Shown here one piece after another: positions 5,956-25,865 of a stretch of 28,907 nucleotides of DNA; positions within the stretch are counted from its first letter, which is position 1, and each line of letters begins with the position of its first letter. Where the stretch lies: the IMG/VR virus record IMGVR_UViG_3300042483_000955, positions 1 to 28,907 of that record; one strand, written 5' to 3'. The position numbers and the translations under genes were made by a program. Under the pieces are notes generated by a model. The model worked only from the letters and a program-made list of their open reading frames with translations, did not search any database and was not told the origin of the DNA. Source of the DNA: a virus.

Positions 5956-7104
5956 TTAGAAAACAGAAGAAGAATATACCAGATTTCTATCCAGTGTGCC
6001 AAGACCCATTGCATATATGACTCTATTAATAGGATCGATTATGCATCGTTCGAATTGATAATCATGATCTACCATAGGTGCAAATTCTATTGGGTAATCA
6101 CCAGGTGGGAATGCAAATACATTGCAGCTCTTATCCTTGCTTAAATAGTATTTGACTTTCTCGCCATCTGAGAGGGTTTTGTAACGGTTTTTATATTTAC
6201 TATTATTCAATAGAAAATTGTAGTAACCCGCAGCTCTGATATGAATCGGACAACCTGAAGCTATTTCAAATTGCTGATAATCTGAAAGAATGTATTTTCT
6301 ATAATTGTTGATCTTCACATTAAAAGTAATGTGTTCAGTATTGGCCAACTTGAATTCTCTCTTTATTTTTTTTAAGAGATTGACAATGTCACCGAGTTCT
6401 ACTTTATCAACAGAAAAAATAAACTTTAATACTTCTTTAAGCTTAGTTCTAGCAAAGAGAGGTGTGCTAGATTGAATAATTTCAAAACCTTTGGCGCTGA
6501 TTTTAGATAGTGGCTCATAATGAATATTAGGTTCTTTCCAAACAATATTCTGCATGTATTTCTTTTTTGCCAGCCAAATAGCATTTTTTGCAACGGTTTC
6601 AAGTTCAAAATTGAGAAAGTTTTCAGCGTTAAGATCTTTTGCGTATTTTTCCAGAATTTTATTATTGAAATCAGCTAATCGATTTTCGTATAAATTCAAT
6701 ACGAAGTCTTTTTCGTTTCCGGTCCATGTGCAATTTTCTAAAACTTCCTGAAAACTTAGATAGCAAGAATCAGTATCGATGTAAATGACTATAGGTTTTT
6801 TAATCTGGCCAGTTACTTCAATATTCATCTTAGAGTGTAGTTCTTTATCCTTAGCCCAATATTCTTGAAAATATCGATTAATCATCTTCTCAGTATAGAG
6901 GATTGCATCCTGACCTTGAAGTGTTATCGTTTCAGCTATGTCAACATTGAAAAAGTAGAACCATTCGTTACCGAATGCTCCATAGATGGAGTTAAGCATT
7001 AATTTTACAGCTTGTTCAAAGTTGTAATATTTTTGTGCTTCAGATTCTACTTCTGCAAGTTTTTCTTGTAATTGCGCTAATTGGTCTCTTTTACTCATTA
7101 TCAT
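5956..7104 (-). CDS. 43B: Split family B DNA polymerase, C-terminal half (motifs B and C, thumb)
   Basis: This 382-residue protein is the C-terminal part of a T4 gp43-type DNA polymerase. It begins with a short charged helix (residues 4-27), then motif B KLMLNSIYGAFGN (K34 to N46), motif C YIDTDS with catalytic D110 and D112, and the KKKY-containing segment LAKKKYM that matches the T4 AKKRY region. The GFEIIQSSTP segment matches the T4 METQQSSTP region at the palm-thumb junction. It lacks the exonuclease domain and motif A, which are encoded by 10985-12397. The C-terminus (LVYSSSVF) could be a clamp-binding tail like that of gp43, by inference. The start overlaps the clamp gene by 14 bases; the third codon is also ATG and may be the true start. 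Confidence 0.92.
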   Translation of the reverse strand: MIMSKRDQLAQLQEKLAEVESEAQKYYNFEQAVKLMLNSIYGAFGNEWFYFFNVDIAETITLQGQDAILYTEKMINRYFQEYWAKDKELHSKMNIEVTGQIKKPIVIYIDTDSCYLSFQEVLENCTWTGNEKDFVLNLYENRLADFNNKILEKYAKDLNAENFLNFELETVAKNAIWLAKKKYMQNIVWKEPNIHYEPLSKISAKGFEIIQSSTPLFARTKLKEVLKFIFSVDKVELGDIVNLLKKIKREFKLANTEHITFNVKINNYRKYILSDYQQFEIASGCPIHIRAAGYYNFLLNNSKYKNRYKTLSDGEKVKYYLSKDKSCNVFAFPPGDYPIEFAPMVDHDYQFERCIIDPINRVIYAMGLGTLDRNLVYSSSVF

Positions 7105-8230: not shown

Positions 8231-9856
8231 TTATCCTTCACAGCTTGAACATGAATTTATATCTCTTGCAAATGACTGTGCTGAACTTTGACTAAATTGA
8301 TAGTATAAAGTTTTAATGCCTTCTTCATGTGCATAAAGATATAATTGGTTAATATCTTTAGCAGGCACTGAAGGGTGGATCATTAGATTCAAAGACTGAG
8401 ACTGATCAATAAACTTTTGTCTTTGGGCCGCTTGTACAACTATTTCTTTTGGACTAATTTCAACAAATGATTTAAAAACTTCTTTTGTTGGAAAATCTAA
8501 ATGCTGTACACTTCCATCGCGCTTTAAGATTCCTTCCCAAACATCTGGTGTATTTAACTCATACTTTTCAAGTTCTGCAATTAAGAACGGGTTTTTATAG
8601 ATAGTTTTTGACTTTGCCAGGTCTTTAATAAAATAATTAGATTTGATTGGCTCAATACCCATACTAACCTGCCCTAGAATAAATGAACTGCTTTTGGTTG
8701 GAGCGATTGCAATTAGTGTCGTGTTTGCATAACCAGGTCTGATTGATCGATAATCCCTTTCATCATGCAACCATTTTGATGCTATTTCACTCTTTTCTTT
8801 TAGGATTGAAAAGATTTCGTGATTTAATCCTTTCGCCTGTAATGAATCAAAAGCAATTAATTTAGATTGAAACAACGAGTGGTATCCTAAAACACCTAAT
8901 CCTAATGCTCTATGTTCGTTTGCGAATCTCCACGCCCTTTTCATACCTGGCATATTATAAGATTTTAAAACAAATTCGTCCATCACTGCGTTTAAAAACA
9001 TCGTATAAACTTCGATAGCATCAGTTTCTTTAATCTCATCCCAATGTAAAAGGTTAATAGAACCTAAGCAACATACGAATGAATTAAATGAATCTGTTGG
9101 TAATTGAATTTCACTGCATAAGTTACTTGCAGTGATATCAAGACCTAGTTCTTTATAGGGAGAATTATTATTTGAATTGTCTTTAAACATGATATACGGA
9201 AATCCAAATTCGCTACGTCTTTGAATTATTTTAGCCCAAGTTTTACGCTTAGATGAATCTCCATCTTTCATTTCCTGGATCCAATTATCGGTTACAGTAA
9301 CTCCGTATTGTAAATTTTGGATAGGATTTCCTTCAGTTCCAATATCTAAGAATTCTAAAATATCATTATGTTCTACAGGTAACCAAACTGCACATGCTCC
9401 TCTTCTAGCTTCGGATTGCTTACAAACATCTACTGTAGTGTCGTATAATCTAGCATAGTGAACAGGTCCATCTGCTCTTCCACCAGTAGAAATTATTGAT
9501 CCTCTTGATCGAATTTTCCCTAAAAATGCAGAAGTTCCTCCACCATATTTAGACATCATGCCAATTTCTCTACTTGCATTTAAGATACTATCTAAATTAT
9601 CGTCAATATTACTTCCATAACAACTTACCGGAAGTCCTTTGTCTTTTCCAAAGTTAATCCAAACTGGTGTTGATAAACTATAAAATCCTTGGCTCATGTA
9701 GTCCTCAAACTTCTTTGCAAACCCTTCGATTTTCAGGTATCTTTCTGCGGTATTAGCTACATCTTTAATTCTCTGTTCCGGAGATTCCGTAATGTAACCT
9801 CTCGAGAGGAATGTTCTGCTGTCTTCGTTAAGCCAGTAATTCTTTTCGTATATCAT
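8231..9856 (-). CDS. nrdA: Class Ia-type ribonucleotide reductase large subunit
   Basis: This 541-residue catalytic subunit reduces ribonucleoside diphosphates to deoxyribonucleotides with NrdB. Active-site residues are visible: C79 in VSCYG and C262 (or C263) in FVCCLGSINL as the redox pair, N245, C247 and E249 in ASNLCSEIQLP for the thiyl radical and substrate site, Y518-Y519 in TLYYQ for radical transfer, and C-terminal C536 and C539 for re-reduction. The protein starts just before the catalytic domain, so the N-terminal ATP-cone seen in E. coli NrdA (about 761 residues) is absent and dATP inhibition through that domain is unlikely. It lies 20 bases downstream of nrdB in the same operon. 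Confidence 0.95.
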   Translation of the reverse strand: MIYEKNYWLNEDSRTFLSRGYITESPEQRIKDVANTAERYLKIEGFAKKFEDYMSQGFYSLSTPVWINFGKDKGLPVSCYGSNIDDNLDSILNASREIGMMSKYGGGTSAFLGKIRSRGSIISTGGRADGPVHYARLYDTTVDVCKQSEARRGACAVWLPVEHNDILEFLDIGTEGNPIQNLQYGVTVTDNWIQEMKDGDSSKRKTWAKIIQRRSEFGFPYIMFKDNSNNNSPYKELGLDITASNLCSEIQLPTDSFNSFVCCLGSINLLHWDEIKETDAIEVYTMFLNAVMDEFVLKSYNMPGMKRAWRFANEHRALGLGVLGYHSLFQSKLIAFDSLQAKGLNHEIFSILKEKSEIASKWLHDERDYRSIRPGYANTTLIAIAPTKSSSFILGQVSMGIEPIKSNYFIKDLAKSKTIYKNPFLIAELEKYELNTPDVWEGILKRDGSVQHLDFPTKEVFKSFVEISPKEIVVQAAQRQKFIDQSQSLNLMIHPSVPAKDINQLYLYAHEEGIKTLYYQFSQSSAQSFARDINSCSSCEG

Positions 9857-9876
9857 GTTTATTTGTTATTTGTATT

Positions 9877-10854
9877 TTAAAATAGATCGTCTTCGGTAAT
9901 AGACTGAGATTTCTTGTTGTAATCAACTGATTTCTTGTAAAAGAAATCTCCTTCTTTGGTTGAAAGTATTTCAACATCAAACCATAAGGTTTTTTCGATT
10001 TCAGTAAAGTCGACATCAAATACAGGTTTCATGCCAATTCGCTGTAAAGAATTATTGAATCGGTTTTGAATAAATTGCTTGATTGTATTTTTTGATAAAA
10101 AGTCCAGTTCTCCATTTTCAAAAATCCAATCAAGAATTTTTTCTTCTGCTATATATGCTTTTTTACAAGCAGAATCTATCAGTTGTTCGAACTCTTCATC
10201 AAACCATTCAGGATTTTCTGTCTTTATAATATTAATCAATTCAGAACCGAAATTACCATGGATCTCTTCTTCTTTGCTTGTTGCTTCTACTACATTAGAT
10301 ATTCCTTTAAATAAATTTTTTTCTTTGTTAAAAGACATCATGATCAAGAATTGACTAAAAAGACTTACGTGTTCGATAAACAAAGAAAAAAGAAGAACTG
10401 ATTTAGTGTACATTTTATTGTCTTTACTACGAGTTCCATCTAGATATTTTGATAGGTAAGCAATTCGGTCTCTGATTGCAGGAATTTCTACAACATTTTG
10501 AAACTCATCCTCTAAACCTAAAACTCTTAATAGTTGCGCATAGGCATCTTTATGTCGAACTTCAGATTCAGCAAAAGTCATTCCAACATCGCCGATTTCA
10601 GTAATAGGCATTCTCTTATAAAGATCAGCCCAAAATGTTTTCACGTTAACTTCTATTTGAGCAATTGCTAACATAGATCTTTTTATCGCTTCACGTTCTA
10701 AATCGGAAACTTTAGTTTTAAAGTCATCGATATCAGTTGTGAAATTGAATTCTGTGTGAATCCAATATGAGTGGCGTATCGCATCTTTGTAAGCTAAAAG
10801 AGAAGGATATTCATAAGGCAAGATATTTACTCTTTTTTCGAAGATGTTATTCAT
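9877..10854 (-). CDS. nrdB: Ribonucleotide reductase small subunit (radical-generating)
   Basis: This 325-residue ferritin-like subunit makes the tyrosyl radical used by NrdA. Metal-site and radical residues are visible in FAESEVRHKDAY: E98, H101 and Y105 keep the E-x2-H-x3-Y spacing of E. coli E115-H118-Y122. The second helix pair has the FIEHVSLF glutamate and EEIH (E-x2-H). The first ligand position appears as Glu in AQIEVNVKTFW instead of the Asp of E. coli NrdB; that sequence style is common in Bacteroidota enzymes. The start at 10854 overlaps the stop of a 30-codon ORF in the structured leader. The C-terminal DDLF tail fits NrdA docking. Confidence 0.95.
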   Translation of the reverse strand: MNNIFEKRVNILPYEYPSLLAYKDAIRHSYWIHTEFNFTTDIDDFKTKVSDLEREAIKRSMLAIAQIEVNVKTFWADLYKRMPITEIGDVGMTFAESEVRHKDAYAQLLRVLGLEDEFQNVVEIPAIRDRIAYLSKYLDGTRSKDNKMYTKSVLLFSLFIEHVSLFSQFLIMMSFNKEKNLFKGISNVVEATSKEEEIHGNFGSELINIIKTENPEWFDEEFEQLIDSACKKAYIAEEKILDWIFENGELDFLSKNTIKQFIQNRFNNSLQRIGMKPVFDVDFTEIEKTLWFDVEILSTKEGDFFYKKSVDYNKKSQSITEDDLF

Positions 10855-10984: not shown

Positions 10985-12397
10985 TCAGATCTCATTTTTC
11001 AATTTTTCAATTTCTTTTTTAAGCCCGTCTGCTTCGATTTGAAGCTCTTTAGATTTAGCTTTATAGACCTTTCTATTTGTATAGAGCTCAGTCAAAATGT
11101 TCTTTAAAATTGAATCTTCTTTATAATAGACCGCACCTGTGACTGAAACTATTTTATCAGGACTCTTTTCTTTCTGGGCAAGAACTGGATCTATCTTATG
11201 TATGAAAGATTCAGGACTGATATTAATCTGTCTCATGATAGAAGGATATAGAGATGCAAAGTCAAAACATGCAACAGCTCGGTGCATTCCTACAATAGGA
11301 GCTTTTACATAAGCTCCTGCATATTGAGCATCTTTCTTTGAATCGCCTGAAAAATCTCTAGCCATGACCTTGCCCTGTTCCAAGAATTTTCTGCAAAGCA
11401 TTGATTCAGTTACGGCTACTGGACTTGCTGCTTTGTATATACCGATACGACACATCGTTGCTATAGTTAATGCAATGTCCATAGTCTTGAGTTTCTGGTG
11501 GATAAGATATACGAGACATGTATCGACAACGTTATAATAAACGTATTTAGTATATTCTTTCTCGTAAAGATCCTGTATCGTACCGTTGTATTTGATTTTC
11601 TTTAGTCCTACTACGGATTCAGCAGTTGAATCGAGTGTAAAATTCTCCTTGATAAAATCTGAACGATCCCATTTTCTGTATAGTTCTAGATAATCCATCA
11701 TTCCTACATGAAGAGGAAGATTCTCTTTACCCCAGAGTTCTCCCACAGGACTTGATATCGCCGGATCTATTGCGAGCTTAGAAGCCCTGTTGACCAAATA
11801 TTTCCAATCGAAATTGATAAAGTTCCAACCTGTGACCATTGGAAACTTAGATACGAAAGACTTAAAAAATGTATAGAGAAGATCATATTCTGACTCAAAC
11901 TTTTTATAGACGAAACTGAATCGAGTTCCAGTATCTTTAAAATATTCGTCTACATCTTTTTGAATTTTTGATTGTTGATCCTGTGCAAGCTCTCCAGTTG
12001 CTAAAACTATAACCTGAGCATTTGGTGTTACGATAGCTATTGTTGTTACGGGTGTATCAGCTCTTTCTGCTTCCGGAAATCCATCTTTAACCTCAACTTC
12101 AATATCAACAAAATAGGTTTTAGGTAAATTGTATCCGAATATTTCTTCGGTTTCTTCAAAAGAGAGTTCATCTATAAATTGGATGAGAGAATATTTGTCC
12201 AGTCCTCTACCTGCTACTCTTTTTACCGGACGGCCATCCCAATTAGTGAATTTATCAGATTTGTTCTTATCCCTCCCTTCGCAAACTTCCCAATTAGCAA
12301 CCTGATCTACTCTATATTTTTTATAGTTGGTATTTCCTTCTTTGTCATAATACGATATTGTAAGGTTCGCGCCTCTTTGTTGTACGTCAAGTAGCAT
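10985..12397 (-). CDS. 43A: Split family B DNA polymerase, N-terminal half (exonuclease and motif A)
   Basis: This 470-residue protein is the N-terminal part of a T4 gp43-type polymerase. Exonuclease motifs are Exo I YFVDIEVE (D98, E100), Exo II TGWNFINFD (D197) and Exo III YYNVVDT (D292), each aligning by eye with T4 (FDIEVT, TGWNIEGFD, SYNIID). Motif A is FDFASLYPSIMRQINISPE with catalytic D379, nearly the T4 FDLTSLYPSIIRQVNISPE. It ends in a highly charged helix (about residues 441-470), the first half of the fingers, and then stops. Motifs B and C are on 5956-7104, five genes away. Combined length (852) is near T4 gp43 (898). The break therefore falls at the fingers tip, and the two chains must assemble to give one active site. 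Confidence 0.93.
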   Translation of the reverse strand: MLLDVQQRGANLTISYYDKEGNTNYKKYRVDQVANWEVCEGRDKNKSDKFTNWDGRPVKRVAGRGLDKYSLIQFIDELSFEETEEIFGYNLPKTYFVDIEVEVKDGFPEAERADTPVTTIAIVTPNAQVIVLATGELAQDQQSKIQKDVDEYFKDTGTRFSFVYKKFESEYDLLYTFFKSFVSKFPMVTGWNFINFDWKYLVNRASKLAIDPAISSPVGELWGKENLPLHVGMMDYLELYRKWDRSDFIKENFTLDSTAESVVGLKKIKYNGTIQDLYEKEYTKYVYYNVVDTCLVYLIHQKLKTMDIALTIATMCRIGIYKAASPVAVTESMLCRKFLEQGKVMARDFSGDSKKDAQYAGAYVKAPIVGMHRAVACFDFASLYPSIMRQINISPESFIHKIDPVLAQKEKSPDKIVSVTGAVYYKEDSILKNILTELYTNRKVYKAKSKELQIEADGLKKEIEKLKNEI

Positions 12398-13005: not shown

Positions 13006-13893
13006 TTACACAAGTTTCTTGAGATCCTTGTTAGCGTCATCGATAGTCTTGCTCTCTTTCTTAAAGACTCCGAGAAGCTTGTTGATGGCTCCTTTGATGG
13101 CAGATTTGATCTTATCGAAAAGAGAAGCTTCAGCTACAACTTTATCAATTGAGAAGCTATGTTTTACCTGAGTTACTTTCTTGCTTGCTTCTAGTGCTTC
13201 TTCAAGAACTCTCTTCGTTGCAGCGTTTACTTTACCTAGAGCATTTTCGAAAGCAGTCTTATAAGATGCATCTTTTCTTTCGCCACCGAAACGAGATACC
13301 TTAATAAGATATTCTTCGGTCTCTGCTAGCTTATCTCCAACTTCTTTCATGCCATCAATCATTGGCTTAACATCACCTTCGAATTGCTTAAATTGAAGTT
13401 TTTTCTCTTCTAATTCAGCTTCGAGTTTTTTGATTTGTTCTTGTAATTCGTAAAATGTCCCAATTTGGGCTTTTACTCCTGGGTCTTCTATGAAAGCTTC
13501 AAAAAGAAACTCTTCAAACATTTTTACTAAAACCACTTTTTTCTTTTTATTTTTCTTTGTTAGCGCTGATGAAGCCGGAATATCTCCAGACCCTACTTTT
13601 TGACTTGGAAACTGATTCATGGTCCCAGGATCACCAGGAAATGTTACAGGGCCCATGCCATTAACATTAGCAGGTGTAGCAGCTGAACCTTCGTCTGCTT
13701 TTTTAACTCTATCAGGCAAACCTTTGTGTTTAGTAGAAGCAAAATCTTTGAGTTGCTTTTGAGTCATTCCTTGTGCAAGATCTTCAATTTCTTTTCTATA
13801 TTCTGGATCGATATCACCAGGTTCAGTAACTCCTTTTTTAAGAGAGTATGCTTGAGCCATGAGTCTTTGTTGTGCTTTTGATGTGCTTGGCAT
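13006..13893 (-). CDS. DUF3008-like domain joined to a capsid-leader-like coiled-coil protein
   Basis: This 295-residue protein has two parts. Residues 1-65 match small phage/bacterial DUF3008-type proteins: an MPSTSKAQQRLMAQAY start, then KDFASTKHKGLP. After a low-complexity Pro/Gly/Ser linker comes a lysine run and VKMFEEFLFEAF (residues 123-134), which resembles the N-terminal leader of the neighbouring head-interior candidates and contains an L-F-E|A site at E132. The rest is helical with a coiled coil (about 148-200) and a basic C-terminus. The internal Met125 at 13521 has an A-rich upstream context (AGTAAAA), so a second translation start is possible. It is the last gene before a strong terminator. 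Confidence 0.6.
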   Translation of the reverse strand: MPSTSKAQQRLMAQAYSLKKGVTEPGDIDPEYRKEIEDLAQGMTQKQLKDFASTKHKGLPDRVKKADEGSAATPANVNGMGPVTFPGDPGTMNQFPSQKVGSGDIPASSALTKKNKKKKVVLVKMFEEFLFEAFIEDPGVKAQIGTFYELQEQIKKLEAELEEKKLQFKQFEGDVKPMIDGMKEVGDKLAETEEYLIKVSRFGGERKDASYKTAFENALGKVNAATKRVLEEALEASKKVTQVKHSFSIDKVVAEASLFDKIKSAIKGAINKLLGVFKKESKTIDDANKDLKKLV

Positions 13894-13902
13894 AGTATAA
13901 TT

Positions 13903-14436
13903 TTATTCCGGTTTGCCTACTAATACTTTTGTATGAGTATGACCTGCTATTTTTCTATCATAGCTACCGTCTGAATTGTATTTAAGTTCTTTGTTGATGA
14001 TTGAGCGTATTAACTTCTCATCTTTAATATATGCAATGCCTAATTTCTGTGAAAGATCTTTGTCTAATTCAGCATAAAACCCTCCAGTTTTCATGAGATC
14101 TGTAAGTTTTCTCATTACTTCTTTCTTTGCATCTGAAGAACCGTCCTGTCCGATGATAGTGATCTTTATTCCGCTTTTAGTAAACTTTCCACCAAAAACA
14201 ACATCAGCTTCTGGATCTTGATCAATGTCTTTCAGAACCCAATATGAAATGTCGCTATTTTTGAGATCATCTGCTTTCTTGATTTCAGCATTGCCTCCTT
14301 TGTTCGCGTATGCAGTCTGAATCAAACTAAAGATTTCAGAAGAATAATTCATTGCATTTCGAATTGGAATTTCAATGAATTTATTCTTTGGATAATCATC
14401 AGCAAACTCTTCAAATAGTTTTACGTATTTAGGCAT
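13903..14436 (-). CDS. Leader-bearing phage protein of unknown function
   Basis: I place the start at the ATG at 14436 rather than 14469. This gives an N-terminus MPKYVKLFEEFADD that matches the leader of the neighbouring genes, removes the overlap with the upstream gene (stop at 14441), and has an A-rich context (TTTAACAAA). The protein is then 177 residues. It ends with IAGHTHTKVLVGKPE, a tail I recall in uncharacterised proteins of other marine T4-like phages, where a GHKHKK-type motif precedes GKP; this is recollection, not a search result. No clear L-x-E|A site ends the leader, so whether it is processed is doubtful. The leader suggests head localisation, by inference. Confidence 0.55.
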   Translation of the reverse strand: MPKYVKLFEEFADDYPKNKFIEIPIRNAMNYSSEIFSLIQTAYANKGGNAEIKKADDLKNSDISYWVLKDIDQDPEADVVFGGKFTKSGIKITIIGQDGSSDAKKEVMRKLTDLMKTGGFYAELDKDLSQKLGIAYIKDEKLIRSIINKELKYNSDGSYDRKIAGHTHTKVLVGKPE

Positions 14437-14440
14437 TTTG

Positions 14441-15700
14441 TTAAATAGCTTTTTTGCTGCCTGAAACAAGTTCAGCGTTTTTCTTTAACCATGCTAAAGC
14501 TTTACCTGCAGAATATTTTAGCATTCCTTTGAAAGTATTAGCTAAATCTTCTACGTTACCGCCTGATTTTGCTTGATAACCATAAACTGTTCCGTTGATG
14601 CTCACATAGAAAAAATCTTTAGTGACGTCTAGAGGATCTACGATGAGGTTCTCATCAATTTCAAAATCTCCGAATATTTCAACTCTTGATTCATTGAGTT
14701 GAAGATCAATTGCTTTGATCTTTTTGATCATTGCATTAACATCATCTTTTTTCCAGTTTCCGTAGATAGGTTCTTTAACTGCGTTGCCAATTGCGTGATT
14801 TACGATATTTCCATTATCGTATAAATTGTAACTACCACCTGCATATTCTTCACCATCAAGATCTAGGTCAAAAGAATCTTCATCAACTGACTTCTTATTA
14901 ACAGTGCATTTAACACCTTCTACTTTAGAAATAGCATCTGCAACTTTTTGAGCTATCTTAAGAGTCTCTTCTTTTGTAAGACCTGCACGGTTACCAAATT
15001 GAGATGCTTCATTAATTGAATTGACGATAGTAGAACCGATCTTAGAAAGAGAATAGAATTTAGCTCCGTCCTCTTCTTCTATTTTGAAGTAGTGGCTATT
15101 TCTTTGGACCCATTTAGAGGGTGCACCTGATTTAGATACTGCATCCATGAAATCAGATTCGCTAATTTTGCCGCTCTTCAAGAGTTCTAAAATCTTGTTT
15201 CTAACTGGTGCGTTGCTATATACATGTTTGATAGCTATACGACCTTCATGGAGATCTTCAGTTTCTCCGTCTTGAGCCATTTGTGCAGCTTGATGATATA
15301 GAGACGTTGGTAGATCGTACCCAGCTTTACTGGCTACCGCACGAGCTTTATTATAATCATTTGGTAATGCACCACCAAAAAAATCTAACACTGAAAAAGC
15401 ATCTGAAAATTTCTTAGATTCGTTGATAGATTCTGCAACTTTAGTTTCCCAGTATTTTTTTAATTTTTCAAATTCAGATTTACCCATATTTGATGTCATG
15501 AAATCTATGACGTCATCATATTCATCCTTTTCATCGGAATAGAATCCAGGTGTATCGATGTAATCTCTACCCATGATTTTCTTGATTTGAGATTCTCCCA
15601 TTCCATCAATTTCTTCCAAGAATTTTTCGAAATCTTTGGTATTCTTAAAGCCTTCATTTAGACTTTCGACGAATTGTTCGAAAAGTTTTACGTGTTTCAT
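14441..15700 (-). CDS. Putative capsid-targeted internal polyprotein with five protease-like sites
   Basis: This 419-residue protein begins MKHVKLFEQFVESLNE|G, like T4 internal-protein leaders (MKTYQEFIAE|A) removed by the gp21 prohead protease. The same kind of site recurs: LNE16|G, INE94|S, LHE152|G, INE231|A and LNE337|S. Cutting at all five would release the leader and five modules of 78, 58, 79, 106 and 82 residues. No enzyme motif is visible. Module 3 starts GRIAIKHV and resembles the GVVSIKGG and GMVQIAGK modules of the protein at 24630-25511. It sits in a run of leader genes (15700-13006). Function of the modules is unknown; head packaging and processing are inferred from site pattern and family knowledge of T4. 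Confidence 0.6.
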   Translation of the reverse strand: MKHVKLFEQFVESLNEGFKNTKDFEKFLEEIDGMGESQIKKIMGRDYIDTPGFYSDEKDEYDDVIDFMTSNMGKSEFEKLKKYWETKVAESINESKKFSDAFSVLDFFGGALPNDYNKARAVASKAGYDLPTSLYHQAAQMAQDGETEDLHEGRIAIKHVYSNAPVRNKILELLKSGKISESDFMDAVSKSGAPSKWVQRNSHYFKIEEEDGAKFYSLSKIGSTIVNSINEASQFGNRAGLTKEETLKIAQKVADAISKVEGVKCTVNKKSVDEDSFDLDLDGEEYAGGSYNLYDNGNIVNHAIGNAVKEPIYGNWKKDDVNAMIKKIKAIDLQLNESRVEIFGDFEIDENLIVDPLDVTKDFFYVSINGTVYGYQAKSGGNVEDLANTFKGMLKYSAGKALAWLKKNAELVSGSKKAI

Positions 15701-16989
15701 TATAATTCTATTTTTAGATCGTTTGATATTAGAGTCTTGATCGGTTTTTCTTCTGTGAAAAGATTTTCAAGAACTTTTTTATTGTTTAGGTAATCTCCGA
15801 AAGTCTTAAATTCTGAAGTCTCTTTCTTTTCGGAGATCTCCTTGATTTTATCTATCAATTTGTTAAAGTCCTTTATGATCATCGGAGTAAGAACGTCGTT
15901 AGTTCTTTCAGGGTCTCTTTTCTTTCTCAAAGAATTCAACATAATTTGAAAAATCTTGCTGTTATTAACTGAACGAGATACTATCTCTCTGGTCTTTTCG
16001 TTAGGTATGAGTTCAGTATTTAAAGAATATTCAACAGCTTTTGCAAAATCACGAGTCTCAAAATCTAATCTTTGTAAATCATCCTCTTTGGCTTCCATGT
16101 AATCGTTATAGATTGAACATACTAAATTTAAGTACTTCTCGTCTGGGAATTCACCTATTGCCATTTCGGGTTTTAAGCCGTGAGTCTCCAAATATTCTAA
16201 GACATCTAAGATCAAAATTGATACAGAATCAACAGTTCCTCTTTTGCTTGATTCTTTGCTATAAAGAGAATGCATGTATGGATCTACTATTTTGGCTGTA
16301 ACTATCTTATCGCCGCCAGGCTTGACAAATTTAAAAATAATAGAGTCGATAACTGCATTTTCATCATTTGATAAAAGAGGTCGATAAAGATAATAACCCT
16401 TAGGATCGAGTATGCTAAAAAGATATTTGAAAAAAGAATCAGTTCCGAGTATTTCTTCTAACTGGTCTTTTGGTGTAGAAAGAAATTCAAGAAGTTTGGC
16501 TTTTCTTTCTTCGTCCAATTTACCTGCAAATAGCGGAGGATTTTCCTGTACGTTAAGAGTATGTGCCCACTCAGATAATACCCTCGGATCTTCTATCGTC
16601 TTAAGAGTTCTTAGTGTCTCTGGTGATTTGATTAAAATCCTGCTAAGTATGAGGCCTGAAGGAGGAACTTTGCCATATATCGAGGCCTCGCCTGGAAAAT
16701 AATCAAAGCCAAACAGCCAGTCTTCTGGCATCTTTGCTTTGGCTTCAGCCGAAAGTTCTTCAAAATGACGAATGCCCTTTTCATAAAAGAGAGCCAGTGT
16801 CCTGTCAATGAGATTGATCGGCTCTTCACTCTTCTTCAAATATAGGATAGAAGAACCTTTTTTCATTACATAAAAGTCTGAAGCATTTATCTTTTCTGAG
16901 ATAATTACGTATGAATCGAAGAGATCTTTTAAGAAGTTCTCTCCTCGCTCTCTATAAAGCTTGTCTAATTCCGGTATGCTGCTTATCAT
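15700..16989 (-). CDS. Putative ligase-fold nucleotidyltransferase
   Basis: This 429-residue protein has SEKINASDFYV near its N-terminus (K33), resembling motif I (K-x-D/N-G/A) of covalent nucleotidyltransferases such as RNA/DNA ligases. ILYLKK then occupies a motif Ia-like position, and WLFGFDYFPG (91-100) a motif III-like position. Residues 100-429 are mostly helical and unassigned. If correct, K33 would be adenylated and the enzyme would join or cap nucleic acid ends, as phage ligases do. Motifs IV and V are not obvious, so this is tentative. The stop overlaps by one base with the start of the downstream polyprotein gene (shared A in TAATG), and the start follows an A/T-rich GAATAAATAAGAAAT tract. 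Confidence 0.4.
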   Translation of the reverse strand: MISSIPELDKLYRERGENFLKDLFDSYVIISEKINASDFYVMKKGSSILYLKKSEEPINLIDRTLALFYEKGIRHFEELSAEAKAKMPEDWLFGFDYFPGEASIYGKVPPSGLILSRILIKSPETLRTLKTIEDPRVLSEWAHTLNVQENPPLFAGKLDEERKAKLLEFLSTPKDQLEEILGTDSFFKYLFSILDPKGYYLYRPLLSNDENAVIDSIIFKFVKPGGDKIVTAKIVDPYMHSLYSKESSKRGTVDSVSILILDVLEYLETHGLKPEMAIGEFPDEKYLNLVCSIYNDYMEAKEDDLQRLDFETRDFAKAVEYSLNTELIPNEKTREIVSRSVNNSKIFQIMLNSLRKKRDPERTNDVLTPMIIKDFNKLIDKIKEISEKKETSEFKTFGDYLNNKKVLENLFTEEKPIKTLISNDLKIEL

Positions 16990-18189: not shown

Positions 18190-18879
18190 TTAAGACATCT
18201 TTTTAACGAAAGAATCGAAATCCATTACAACCTTTTCAGGTTTTCCAGCTTCTACTTTTTCTTTTTCGATCTCTTTAGCAGTGTCTTCATCTGGAGCCAT
18301 TTCAGCAGCTTTACCAGCTTCTGGATCTTCTTCAACTTCAGCAGCTGCTTCAACTTCTTCAGGTTGTTTTTCAACATCGCCTTCAGCAGGTTCTGGCTCA
18401 CTTTGAGCTACTTTTTCCTTTTCAATGTCTTCAGCTGTGTCTTCTTCAACCTCTTCTTTAGGTTCTTTATCTTCTTCATCTTCAGCCGGAACTTCTTCCT
18501 CAGATTCTAAAGAAGCAACGTTGTTGATTATTTCTTCTTCGTCCTTGTCTTCTTCGCCTTCGCCATGACCGTTTCCACCGTCGCCTTCACCTTCGTCTTC
18601 ATCTTCATCTTCTTTAACAGGTGCTTCGCCGTCTTCTTTTTTAACAAGTTCTTCACCTTTAGCTGTAGGGCCTTCGCCTGCTGTATAATGATCGCCTATT
18701 TCATTAAAGAATTCTTTCTTCTTGTCGTCATCTAATTCAGCTGGAGAGCTAACGTCATATTTCTTTAATAGTGACGCGAATACTTCTCCGTATTCTTTTT
18801 GCAGATCAGCTTCTTTTACTGCTTGAGCTGTTTCGTTTTTCTTCGACTGAAAGTCTGAGAATTTTTGAATTGGTTGCAT
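18190..18879 (-). CDS. Highly acidic protein, putative prohead core/internal component
   Basis: This 229-residue protein is dominated by Glu/Asp runs from about residue 75 to 205, broken by Pro/Ala/Lys. The N-terminus MQPIQKFSDFQ is a loose match to the leader family (M-x4-F-x2-F). Residues 45-61 (SPAELDDDKKKEFFNEI) form a more ordered helix like those in small phage head proteins. An 11-residue element, DTA-(E/K)-(D/E)-IEKEKV, occurs twice (147-157 and 199-209). Extreme acidity recalls the T4 core protein gp67, but this is analogy only; no sequence homology is claimed. The gene has its own AATATATAGA motif upstream and its own terminator downstream, so it is a single-gene transcription unit, which fits high-level late expression. 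Confidence 0.5.
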   Translation of the reverse strand: MQPIQKFSDFQSKKNETAQAVKEADLQKEYGEVFASLLKKYDVSSPAELDDDKKKEFFNEIGDHYTAGEGPTAKGEELVKKEDGEAPVKEDEDEDEGEGDGGNGHGEGEEDKDEEEIINNVASLESEEEVPAEDEEDKEPKEEVEEDTAEDIEKEKVAQSEPEPAEGDVEKQPEEVEAAAEVEEDPEAGKAAEMAPDEDTAKEIEKEKVEAGKPEKVVMDFDSFVKKMS

Positions 18880-24032: not shown

Positions 24033-24617
24033 TTAAGCTTCTTGTGCAATCATTGCGTGGCAAACGTTAACAGAGATCCAACCTGCTTTATTGAAGAACT
24101 CTTTCGCGATCTTTTTAACTTTGTCAGCTTCTCCGCTAGTTATTGGATCTTCTCCCATATCGTTCCAGTCTTTTACAGCTTCTTTGAAGGTGCCTTCGAA
24201 ATCTTTCGATTTGTCGGCATATTCTGGATCGCTCTGTCCAGAAGTATCTGTGTTATAATCTGTCCAATATTTGATGTCGATAGCTTCATGTATCTTGATC
24301 TCGTGTGTATCTTCAGAATTACCTTCTAACAGTTCAGGATAATATTCTTTGATATCATCAGCGTCCATTTCATAAAATTCGCTCTGTAGATAACCTAAGA
24401 TGTCTTTTTTCTTGCCTGTTACGTCAAAAGTTCCAGGATTGCTTTTAACCTCTTTTACTTTGATGTTGTATTTTTTGAAAGCATCTTTTGCGGCTTTGTC
24501 TTCTTCTGTATCTGAATCATCCCAAGCCATATCTAAGTCAATAGTTATAACTTCATTAGGCTTTTTAGAAGAAAGAGCTTCGTTTACGAAGTCTTCGAAT
24601 AATTTTACGTGTTTCAT
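24033..24617 (-). CDS. Leader-bearing putative internal head protein
   Basis: This 194-residue acidic protein starts MKHVKLFEDFVNE|A, the leader type shared with 14441-15700, and has a second similar site, IHE111|A. Processing would give modules of 98 and 83 residues. Module 1 contains ILGYLQSEFYEMDADDIKEY, a helix seen in other phage proteins as far as I recall. Module 2 has no known motif. The first 11 start-codon-proximal bases (ATGAAACACGT) are identical to those of the genes starting at 15700 and 25511. It is flanked by another leader gene and the RuvC-like gene. Packaging into the head is inferred. Confidence 0.55.
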   Translation of the reverse strand: MKHVKLFEDFVNEALSSKKPNEVITIDLDMAWDDSDTEEDKAAKDAFKKYNIKVKEVKSNPGTFDVTGKKKDILGYLQSEFYEMDADDIKEYYPELLEGNSEDTHEIKIHEAIDIKYWTDYNTDTSGQSDPEYADKSKDFEGTFKEAVKDWNDMGEDPITSGEADKVKKIAKEFFNKAGWISVNVCHAMIAQEA

Positions 24618-24629
24618 TAATATGATTTT

Positions 24630-25511
24630 TTAGAATGTGTTGTTCATAATTACATCCTGAACGTCGTCTACTAAGTAAGACTTCACCTTATCAGCGCCTG
24701 GCTTCAAATATTCTTTCTTCATAAGATCGTCAACGATGATAGTGGCTAAGACCTTAGCACCTGATGGCTTGTTTTTTCCGGCTATTTGCACCATTCCTTC
24801 GTTGAGTTCTGATTCATCGATCTTCTTAGCTGCAAGTTTAGGATCTTTTTTAGACATGTTGTCCATATAAGTACCGTTACCATACCAAGCTATCACCGCA
24901 CCGGTATCGGCAGATGAATTAAAATTTCCGCCTGCATTAAAAACATCGACTTCATTTGCGCCTTGTGCAATCAGCTCTTTTGCAAATGACATTGCCTTTG
25001 ATCTGTCGCTGAATTTTTTGCTTCCTCTGACGTGTTGATTAGTGTAAATAACTTCGAAAGCTTCGTTAAGAGATTCAGACATAGATGTTGTAGCTAAAAG
25101 AGAAGCAATAGCTTCTACTAGATCCTCAGTCTTCTTTTTCACGGGAATGATTTCCATGTCAACGAGCTTGTTGAGAACTTTGTGAGCCAAGATTCGACCA
25201 CCTTTGATAGAAACTACACCTTCGTTTAAAGTTTTTTCGGATTCATAAACCGTAATTGCGACATTAGTGCTTTTTTCATAGCTGACTAACTTTAAATTCA
25301 TTGCATCTCCAACCTTTTTCATTTCAGGCTCGCTCATATAAGTAGAAGTTCTAACCTCGTAGCCTTTGCCTGCTTTAGCTATTTTTTTGATTGCATTAGG
25401 ATTATTGCCGGTCTCATTTTCAAAATGCAAAGGAAATTCATATTGAAAATCTTTGAGATTTCCGTCGTAGGCTTCGTTAAGAAAGCTTTCTAGTGTTGAT
25501 ACGTGTTTCAT
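24630..25511 (-). CDS. Putative capsid-targeted polyprotein with duplicated module
   Basis: This 293-residue protein starts MKHVSTLESFLNE|A and carries three further sites of identical type: LNE97|G, LNE150|A and LNE238|G. They divide it into the leader and modules of 84, 53, 88 and 55 residues. Modules 2 (GVVSIKGG...KVLNKLV) and 4 (GMVQIAGK...KVLATIIV) look like duplicates of each other, and both begin exactly at an LNE|G site, so the sites coincide with domain borders. No enzyme motif is visible. It is the middle gene of a run starting from the AATATATAGA motif at 25878. The model is a head-packaged precursor cut by the prohead protease, inferred from T4. Confidence 0.6.
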   Translation of the reverse strand: MKHVSTLESFLNEAYDGNLKDFQYEFPLHFENETGNNPNAIKKIAKAGKGYEVRTSTYMSEPEMKKVGDAMNLKLVSYEKSTNVAITVYESEKTLNEGVVSIKGGRILAHKVLNKLVDMEIIPVKKKTEDLVEAIASLLATTSMSESLNEAFEVIYTNQHVRGSKKFSDRSKAMSFAKELIAQGANEVDVFNAGGNFNSSADTGAVIAWYGNGTYMDNMSKKDPKLAAKKIDESELNEGMVQIAGKNKPSGAKVLATIIVDDLMKKEYLKPGADKVKSYLVDDVQDVIMNNTF

Positions 25512-25514
25512 ATT

Positions 25515-25865
25515 TTAAATTCTTTTTCCTAAATTAAAACCAATAGCAGCTCCAACGAGTCTACTGGTAAGAAGATCGAATAGGAGACCTTTTTCGACTC
25601 CTAATGCATTTGCTACTATTTTTCCGACTGATTGACCTAAAGCAAAGCCCGTAAGCCCTCCGAGTATAGATCCGATAAAGCCTTCATTCGCAAGTTCTTC
25701 CTGTAGTTGTTCTATTGTATAACCGTTGTCTTTTGCTTTTTTGATAAAAGCTTCAACAGCTTCATCTATAGCATTTTGATCAACTGATTCGTTCATTATT
25801 GCTTCAAAAGCTTGAAAATCTTCTTTTTCTCCTATGAACTCATTGAATGATTGCATGTCTTTCAT
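25515..25865 (-). CDS. Leader-bearing protein with glycine-rich hydrophobic C-terminus
   Basis: This 116-residue protein has a short leader-like N-terminus (MKDMQSFNEFIGE) and candidate sites at IGE13|K, MNE26|S and ANE61|G. The C-terminal part (62-116) is hydrophobic and glycine-rich (GSILGGLTGFALGQSVG, then LVGAAIGFNLG), like glycine-zipper membrane segments. If cut at ANE61|G, the product would be a 55-residue potentially membrane-active peptide carried in the head; this is speculation. The start is 12 bases downstream of an AATATATAGA motif, so any transcript from it would have a very short leader. The three-base gap to the next gene marks it as first in the operon. Confidence 0.5.
   Translation of the reverse strand: MKDMQSFNEFIGEKEDFQAFEAIMNESVDQNAIDEAVEAFIKKAKDNGYTIEQLQEELANEGFIGSILGGLTGFALGQSVGKIVANALGVEKGLLFDLLTSRLVGAAIGFNLGKRI

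Follow-up and report, generated by a model that had tools for sequence, protein, structure and literature searches.

A leader-bearing multi-module protein of a T4-like phage contig is probably an internal head precursor cut at several sites

The window, a 28.9-kb IMG/VR virus record, has recognisable genes that are T4-like and lie on the minus strand. They encode UvsX, UvsW, UvsY-like and gp32-like proteins, a DnaB-type helicase and a primase, together with a DNA polymerase in two ORFs and a weak tail-tube match. The polymerase is split between ORFs 5956-7104 and 10985-12397 (minus strand), and the relative L002 is split likewise. The ribonucleotide reductase genes at 8231-10854 (minus strand) encode proteins of 541 and 325 aa, compared with 838 and 335 aa at the same place in L002, which suggests gene replacement at this locus. 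Bases 1-25000 had no close DNA match among 50,697 phage records, and relatives of the window were obtained as virus contigs. The nearest large relative, G001, is 62.5 kb long, and its UvsW is 93% identical. Its portal and protease best match uncultured huge phages, the 462-kb LR756500 first and then records of 635-735 kb.

We examined a 419-aa ORF of the window, here called locus A, and the other proteins with a similar N-terminal leader. Their features are listed below, with a slash marking each predicted cut.

14441-15700, minus strand: ORF of the leader-bearing precursor (locus A, 419 aa); homologues with module losses in L002/L003 and L006/L007
15653-15700, minus strand: capsid-targeting-like leader MKHVKLFEQFVESLNE, predicted cut after E16; resembles T4 IP leaders
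15419-15652, minus strand: module M1, residues 17-94, site INE94/S; absent from L007, present in L002; pLDDT about 90-95
15245-15418, minus strand: module M2, residues 95-152, site LHE152/G; absent from L002, directly after the leader in L007
15008-15244, minus strand: module M3, residues 153-231, winged-helix-like by structural matches, site INE231/A; stand-alone and leader-tagged in L063 and L074
14690-15007, minus strand: module M4, residues 232-337, site LNE337/S; absent from L002 and L007, stand-alone and leader-tagged in L042
14444-14689, minus strand: module M5, residues 338-419; conserved in L002, L007 and L038
24630-25511, minus strand: second multi-module precursor, with leader 1-13, B1 14-97, R1 98-150, B2 151-238 and R2 239-293
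24033-24617, minus strand: third precursor, with leader 1-13, D1 14-111 and D2 112-194
25515-25865, minus strand: small protein with the leader pattern, beginning MKDMQSFNEFIGE; weak match to PHROG 2667 'internal head protein' (E 0.025)
13903-14436, minus strand: leader-like protein with the leader pattern, beginning MPKYVKLFEEFADD
18190-18879, minus strand: acidic protein with a leader-like N-terminus (MQPIQKFSDF) and a leader-like C-terminus (MDFDSFVKKMS)

The translation of locus A contains all five protease-like sites named in the first-pass annotation: LNE16/G, INE94/S, LHE152/G, INE231/A and LNE337/S. That annotation had also called them regularly spaced, a description we dropped, since the intervals (16, 78, 58, 79, 106 and 82 aa) are domain-sized. 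Its division of the chain into modules of 58-106 aa was borne out, and the sites between them are of the gp21 type (L/I-x-E). Position P3 is L or I at 5/5 sites, which does not fit the S/A/G-x-E motif of the phiKZ type, and with five sites the protein departs from the single cut of T4 internal head proteins. The leader pattern, like MKHVKLFEQFVESLNE/G and ending in L/I-x-E, was found on many proteins of relatives.

The pattern (L/I)NE(A/G/S) occurs four times in 14441-15700 and four times in 24630-25511 (E13, E97, E150, E238), as first reported. The impression that replication proteins of the window lack it could be extended to the 25 other window proteins examined (0/25; 7,706 aa). When the proposed count against shuffled sequences was run, the bodies of six leader-bearing proteins held 6 copies compared with 0.21 in shuffles, and the body of 14441-15700 alone held 3 compared with 0.06 (p=0.0004). 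With the T4-derived motif [LIV]xE[AGS], 24630-25511 and 14441-15700 were the two most enriched among 33 window ORFs. In the 234-kb relative G018, the top three of 297 ORFs by motif enrichment were two precursors and the protease/scaffold.

As a control, the same motif was applied to T4, where it occurs exactly once in each of IPI, IPII and IPIII, where the leader ends (residues 19, 10 and 10), and also picks LTE65/A in gp23. These positions agree with what is described for T4, namely leaders of 10-19 residues, an L/I-x-E motif and a gp23 propeptide of 65 residues (PMC9026906). In 14441-15700 the motif additionally matches E90, beside E94, and E181, within a confidently folded domain. Thus, the cuts are not defined by the motif alone, and sequence by itself over-predicts them.

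The decisive evidence came from comparison with relatives, in which modules are lost at or near the predicted sites. The L002/L003 version has 260 aa and lacks M2 (SLNE/A runs directly into RIAIKH) as well as M4. In L006/L007 the leader is joined straight to M2 (MKHLKLFEQFINE/AKKFPDAF), so that M1 is skipped, and M4 is missing too. The M1 and M2 junctions are residue-exact; those of M4 can be placed only to about four residues, owing to divergence of the flanks. The other precursors behave similarly. For 24630-25511, the middle module between R1 and R2 is replaced in L003, R2 stands alone after a leader in L007, and R1 shares a single chain in L007 with D2, which lies at its end. D2, the C-terminal half of 24033-24617, stands alone after a leader in L004 and is C-terminal in long precursors. 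In total, M3, M4, R2 and D2 were found elsewhere as single-module, leader-tagged genes.

A wider-family search with a three-sequence alignment as query yielded 41 loci. In distant uncultured phage contigs, window modules form part of precursors that reach 1,034 aa and are joined by linkers of the kind ESVVNE/, ESLNE/ or SVVTE/, and M1 was found within the long precursors of L037, L039, L043, L044, L052 and L061. G018 carries some twenty further proteins with leaders such as MKHIKLFEQFxNE/. Within five homologous groups, 34 of 129 inserts had both ends no more than 5 residues from a T4-derived site, compared with 2.7 expected under random placement (maximum 10 in 1,000 randomisations). The inserts are phylogenetically non-independent, so this figure is indicative. 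A cruder test, based on where all-against-all BLAST alignments end, showed these ends to be only about two-fold enriched close to sites; since the ends of local alignments are noisy, we prefer the indel test.

The motif is short and degenerate, and in principle its matches could be accidents in an unrelated protein. This is hardly credible, as the enrichment of 14441-15700, the coincidence of its sites with indel ends in two relatives and the family-wide excess of inserts at sites already contradict it.

Nucleotidyltransferase (CTP_transf-like, NMNAT-like) domains follow NE/ sites in the site-type precursors L008:13200-15095 and L070:7905-9029. The former chain includes a homologue of 15700-16989 and ends in the leader-like SIMTFEQFINKY. 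In the window, 15700-16989 (minus strand) encodes a conserved unannotated protein without any family match, and its ISEKINASDF is reminiscent of RNA-ligase motif I. The L007 version of 18190-18879 (L007:11551-12438) runs past VNEGNVNEG into an extra module of ~75 aa.

To judge where the sites lie, we modelled the 419-aa protein with AlphaFold (mean pLDDT 73.6, pTM 0.37) and found M1 and M3 to be confident. Confidence falls near residues 91-110, 141-160, 231-240 and 331-350, around the internal sites. On the suggested check of whether the sites fall in linkers, the model places them in low-confidence stretches between the domains, but helices are drawn across E94, E231 and E337. Linker placement is thus backed by confidence, not by coil, and the sites are better described as uncertain extensions than as coils. 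M4 fragments were excluded from the structure input because a joint alignment of module fragments misplaced M4 on M3 or M1, and the M4 model is weaker.

Over residues 154-240, the M3 model matches winged-helix regulators, with MepR the best (Z 9.6, rmsd 3.4 over 85 residues). Other matches are of the MarR/TubR type, including TubR and AspA (Foldseek E about 0.02). On the strength of this model, M3 is likely rather than certain to be a winged helix, and its inferred function is probably DNA binding. The modules other than M3 have no structural identification, and most match no known family. Pfam, PHROGs and PADLOC searches of the precursors returned no significant match from which a function could be named. 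Pfam matches above cut-off, including any to a peptidase domain, were lacking in the window precursors, which is weak evidence of absence. No relative of the window precursors, or of two long precursors of L061, was found in 50,697 GenBank phage records. For the C-terminal domain shared by the long precursors, Foldseek gave a best E of 1.1, a second look gave only generic helical-bundle matches, and profile comparison with solved structures produced no significant match.

We did not find a protease or capsid gene in the window, a 28.9-kb fragment. In G001, an S77 prohead protease (E 6e-17) is fused to a repetitive scaffold-like region and adjoins the portal and a gp23-type capsid protein. The protease/scaffold has candidate sites of the same kind at VNE164/S, after the protease domain, and at LNE481/G and LNE537/S; the capsid protein has LINE/A near its start and QLNE/N at about residue 45. 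An above-cut-off S77 match and gp23 occur together in 8/16 further precursor contigs, and the remaining 8 may be fragments.

These candidate sites bear on whether the chain is cut at all. A leader-bearing gene of L050 has become fused, in frame, to an apparent former upstream spacer (NINNTIMKHVKLFEAFVNE/KAYRMTG...), while G018 retains the stand-alone version, which suggests that precursors can grow by fusion of neighbouring tagged genes. The xNE linkers could then be flexible joints or recombination points left by gene fusion, with leader remnants holding the motif by descent and one working multidomain chain acting in the head or the cell; the model helices that cross some sites would suit such a protein. 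However, the same motif is found in the capsid protein and where the protease domain ends, and neither is a fusion remnant, which makes an uncut chain less likely. In addition, the strongest enrichment in G018 includes the protease/scaffold, and sites of the LHE152 type have the L/I-x-E form with no clear trace of a leader. We consider an uncut protein very unlikely.

Taken together, these data make 14441-15700 probably an internal-head polyprotein that a prohead protease would cut into packaged products. This multi-cut precursor, already proposed in the first-pass annotation, remains the best-supported reading. The leader, the sites and their enrichment, indels and module exchange at sites, stand-alone tagged modules, and an S77 protease and capsid protein with matching candidate sites in a close relative are present at the level of sequence. 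That the chain is really cleaved, that its pieces stay in the virion and are ejected, and what they do as cargo are inferences, without proteomics or biochemistry.

In the proposed mechanism, the N-terminal 16 residues would act like the T4 capsid-targeting sequence and dock the chain in the prohead core. There, the S77 (gp21-type) prohead protease would cut after Glu at L/I-x-E/(A/G/S), that is at E16, E94, E152, E231 and E337, and free five small domains of 78, 58, 79, 106 and 82 aa inside the head. The freed domains would be packaged with the DNA and probably ejected with it, so that a single leader would carry in several cargo proteins. Because every junction would be a cut site, a module could be gained, dropped or exchanged while those next to it stay intact.

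Against the polyprotein weigh the absence of a protease or capsid gene from the window fragment and the model helices across sites. The motif match at E181, inside M3, would also have to remain uncut, and the known multi-site proteins of T4 (gp22, gp67 and gp68) are fragmented and for the most part lost. The main rival is a core or scaffold protein that would enter the prohead and be cut there at these sites, its pieces aiding assembly before being expelled. In T4, core proteins carry several gp21 sites and most of their material is removed (PMC9026906), gp22 has 10 [LIV]xE[AGS] matches in 269 aa, and several modules are acidic. However, locus A does not show the dense cutting of gp22; its module-bounding sites lie at intervals of 58-106 aa and enclose whole domains, of which two are confidently folded. 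The relative already has a scaffold-like region fused to its protease, the modules are dispensable and variable among close relatives, and tagged single-module proteins exist, like the T4 IPs. In the absence of virion proteomics, site spacing, exchangeability and tagged copies argue for cargo, and a gp22-like role is unlikely.

The proposed polyprotein shares several features with known systems. T4 IPI, IPII, IPIII and Alt likewise have a short N-terminal leader with L/I-x-E before a small residue, and their cutting by an S77 protease and varied cargo match what is inferred for locus A; the leader, the motif and their role in bringing varied proteins into T4 heads have already been described (PMC9026906). 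In T4 IPIII, Asp at position 10 prevents processing while targeting persists (PMC9026906). The IPs differ in having one motif site and one product each, whereas locus A has one leader, five modules and a site at each junction. T4 gp22, gp67 and gp68 also have several gp21 sites per chain, but these are dense and the fragments mostly removed, whereas the sites of locus A are domain-spaced and its modules exchangeable. The earlier claim that the precursor goes beyond the single-cut proteins of T4 thus stands for a multi-cut chain with seemingly independently folding, exchangeable cargo. It does not stand for multiple cutting as such, since in T4 both ends of Alt are processed and the chains of gp22, gp67 and gp68 are fragmented (PMC9026906).

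In the giant phages phiKZ and SPN3US, inner-body and ejection proteins are similar as abundant, cleaved internal head proteins with multiple propeptide cuts, reported within propeptides of SPN3US (PMC10052503). However, the phiKZ protease prefers S/A/G-x-E, and the multiple cuts remove a propeptide and do not free several domains. The polyvalent proteins of phages and conjugative elements are also multi-domain and are delivered with DNA, as is inferred for locus A (PMC5512222), and their authors compare them with viral polyproteins (PMC5512222). Their release is ascribed to embedded peptidase domains, whereas the cuts of locus A are predicted to be made by the prohead protease. In the literature searched, we found no account of packaged precursors with several modules that a prohead protease cuts apart, which is not proof of priority. 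Thus, the leader system is known from the T4 IPs and Alt, and the modular multi-cut precursor appears to be a novel form of it.

On balance, we lean towards a broader proposal: in a large clade of uncultured giant T4-like phages, one leader would import as many as about ten orphan domains, the chain would be diced by the prohead protease, and cassettes would shuffle at the cut sites, giving exchangeable multi-protein delivery. If true, this would extend T4 capsid targeting, in which each protein has its own leader, to a system in which many share one, and would allow economical packing and evolution of injected cargo in giant phages. Cargo discovery would be easy, with modules readable between sites, and nature would offer a model for filling phage heads with several proteins at once. 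As most modules belong to no known family, candidates for host-takeover or DNA-binding proteins may be sought among them.

Leader-like sequences were also observed outside the multi-module precursors. The window protein 13006-13893 (minus strand) has a DUF3008 N-terminus and an internal leader-like VKMFEEFLFE/AF, and its segment GMGPVTFPGDPGTMNQFPSQKVGSGD resembles the capsid-protein N-arm GMGAVSFPGDPGLNTGFPTQASGSGD of a relative (L015:7555-9231). LR756500 (462 kb, L024-L033) encodes more than twelve proteins with a leader tag, most of which have just the one leader site; among them are leucine-rich repeats, a PNK 3'-phosphatase, a DUF2201 metallopeptidase/VWA protein, an ATP-grasp protein and a ligase-like protein.
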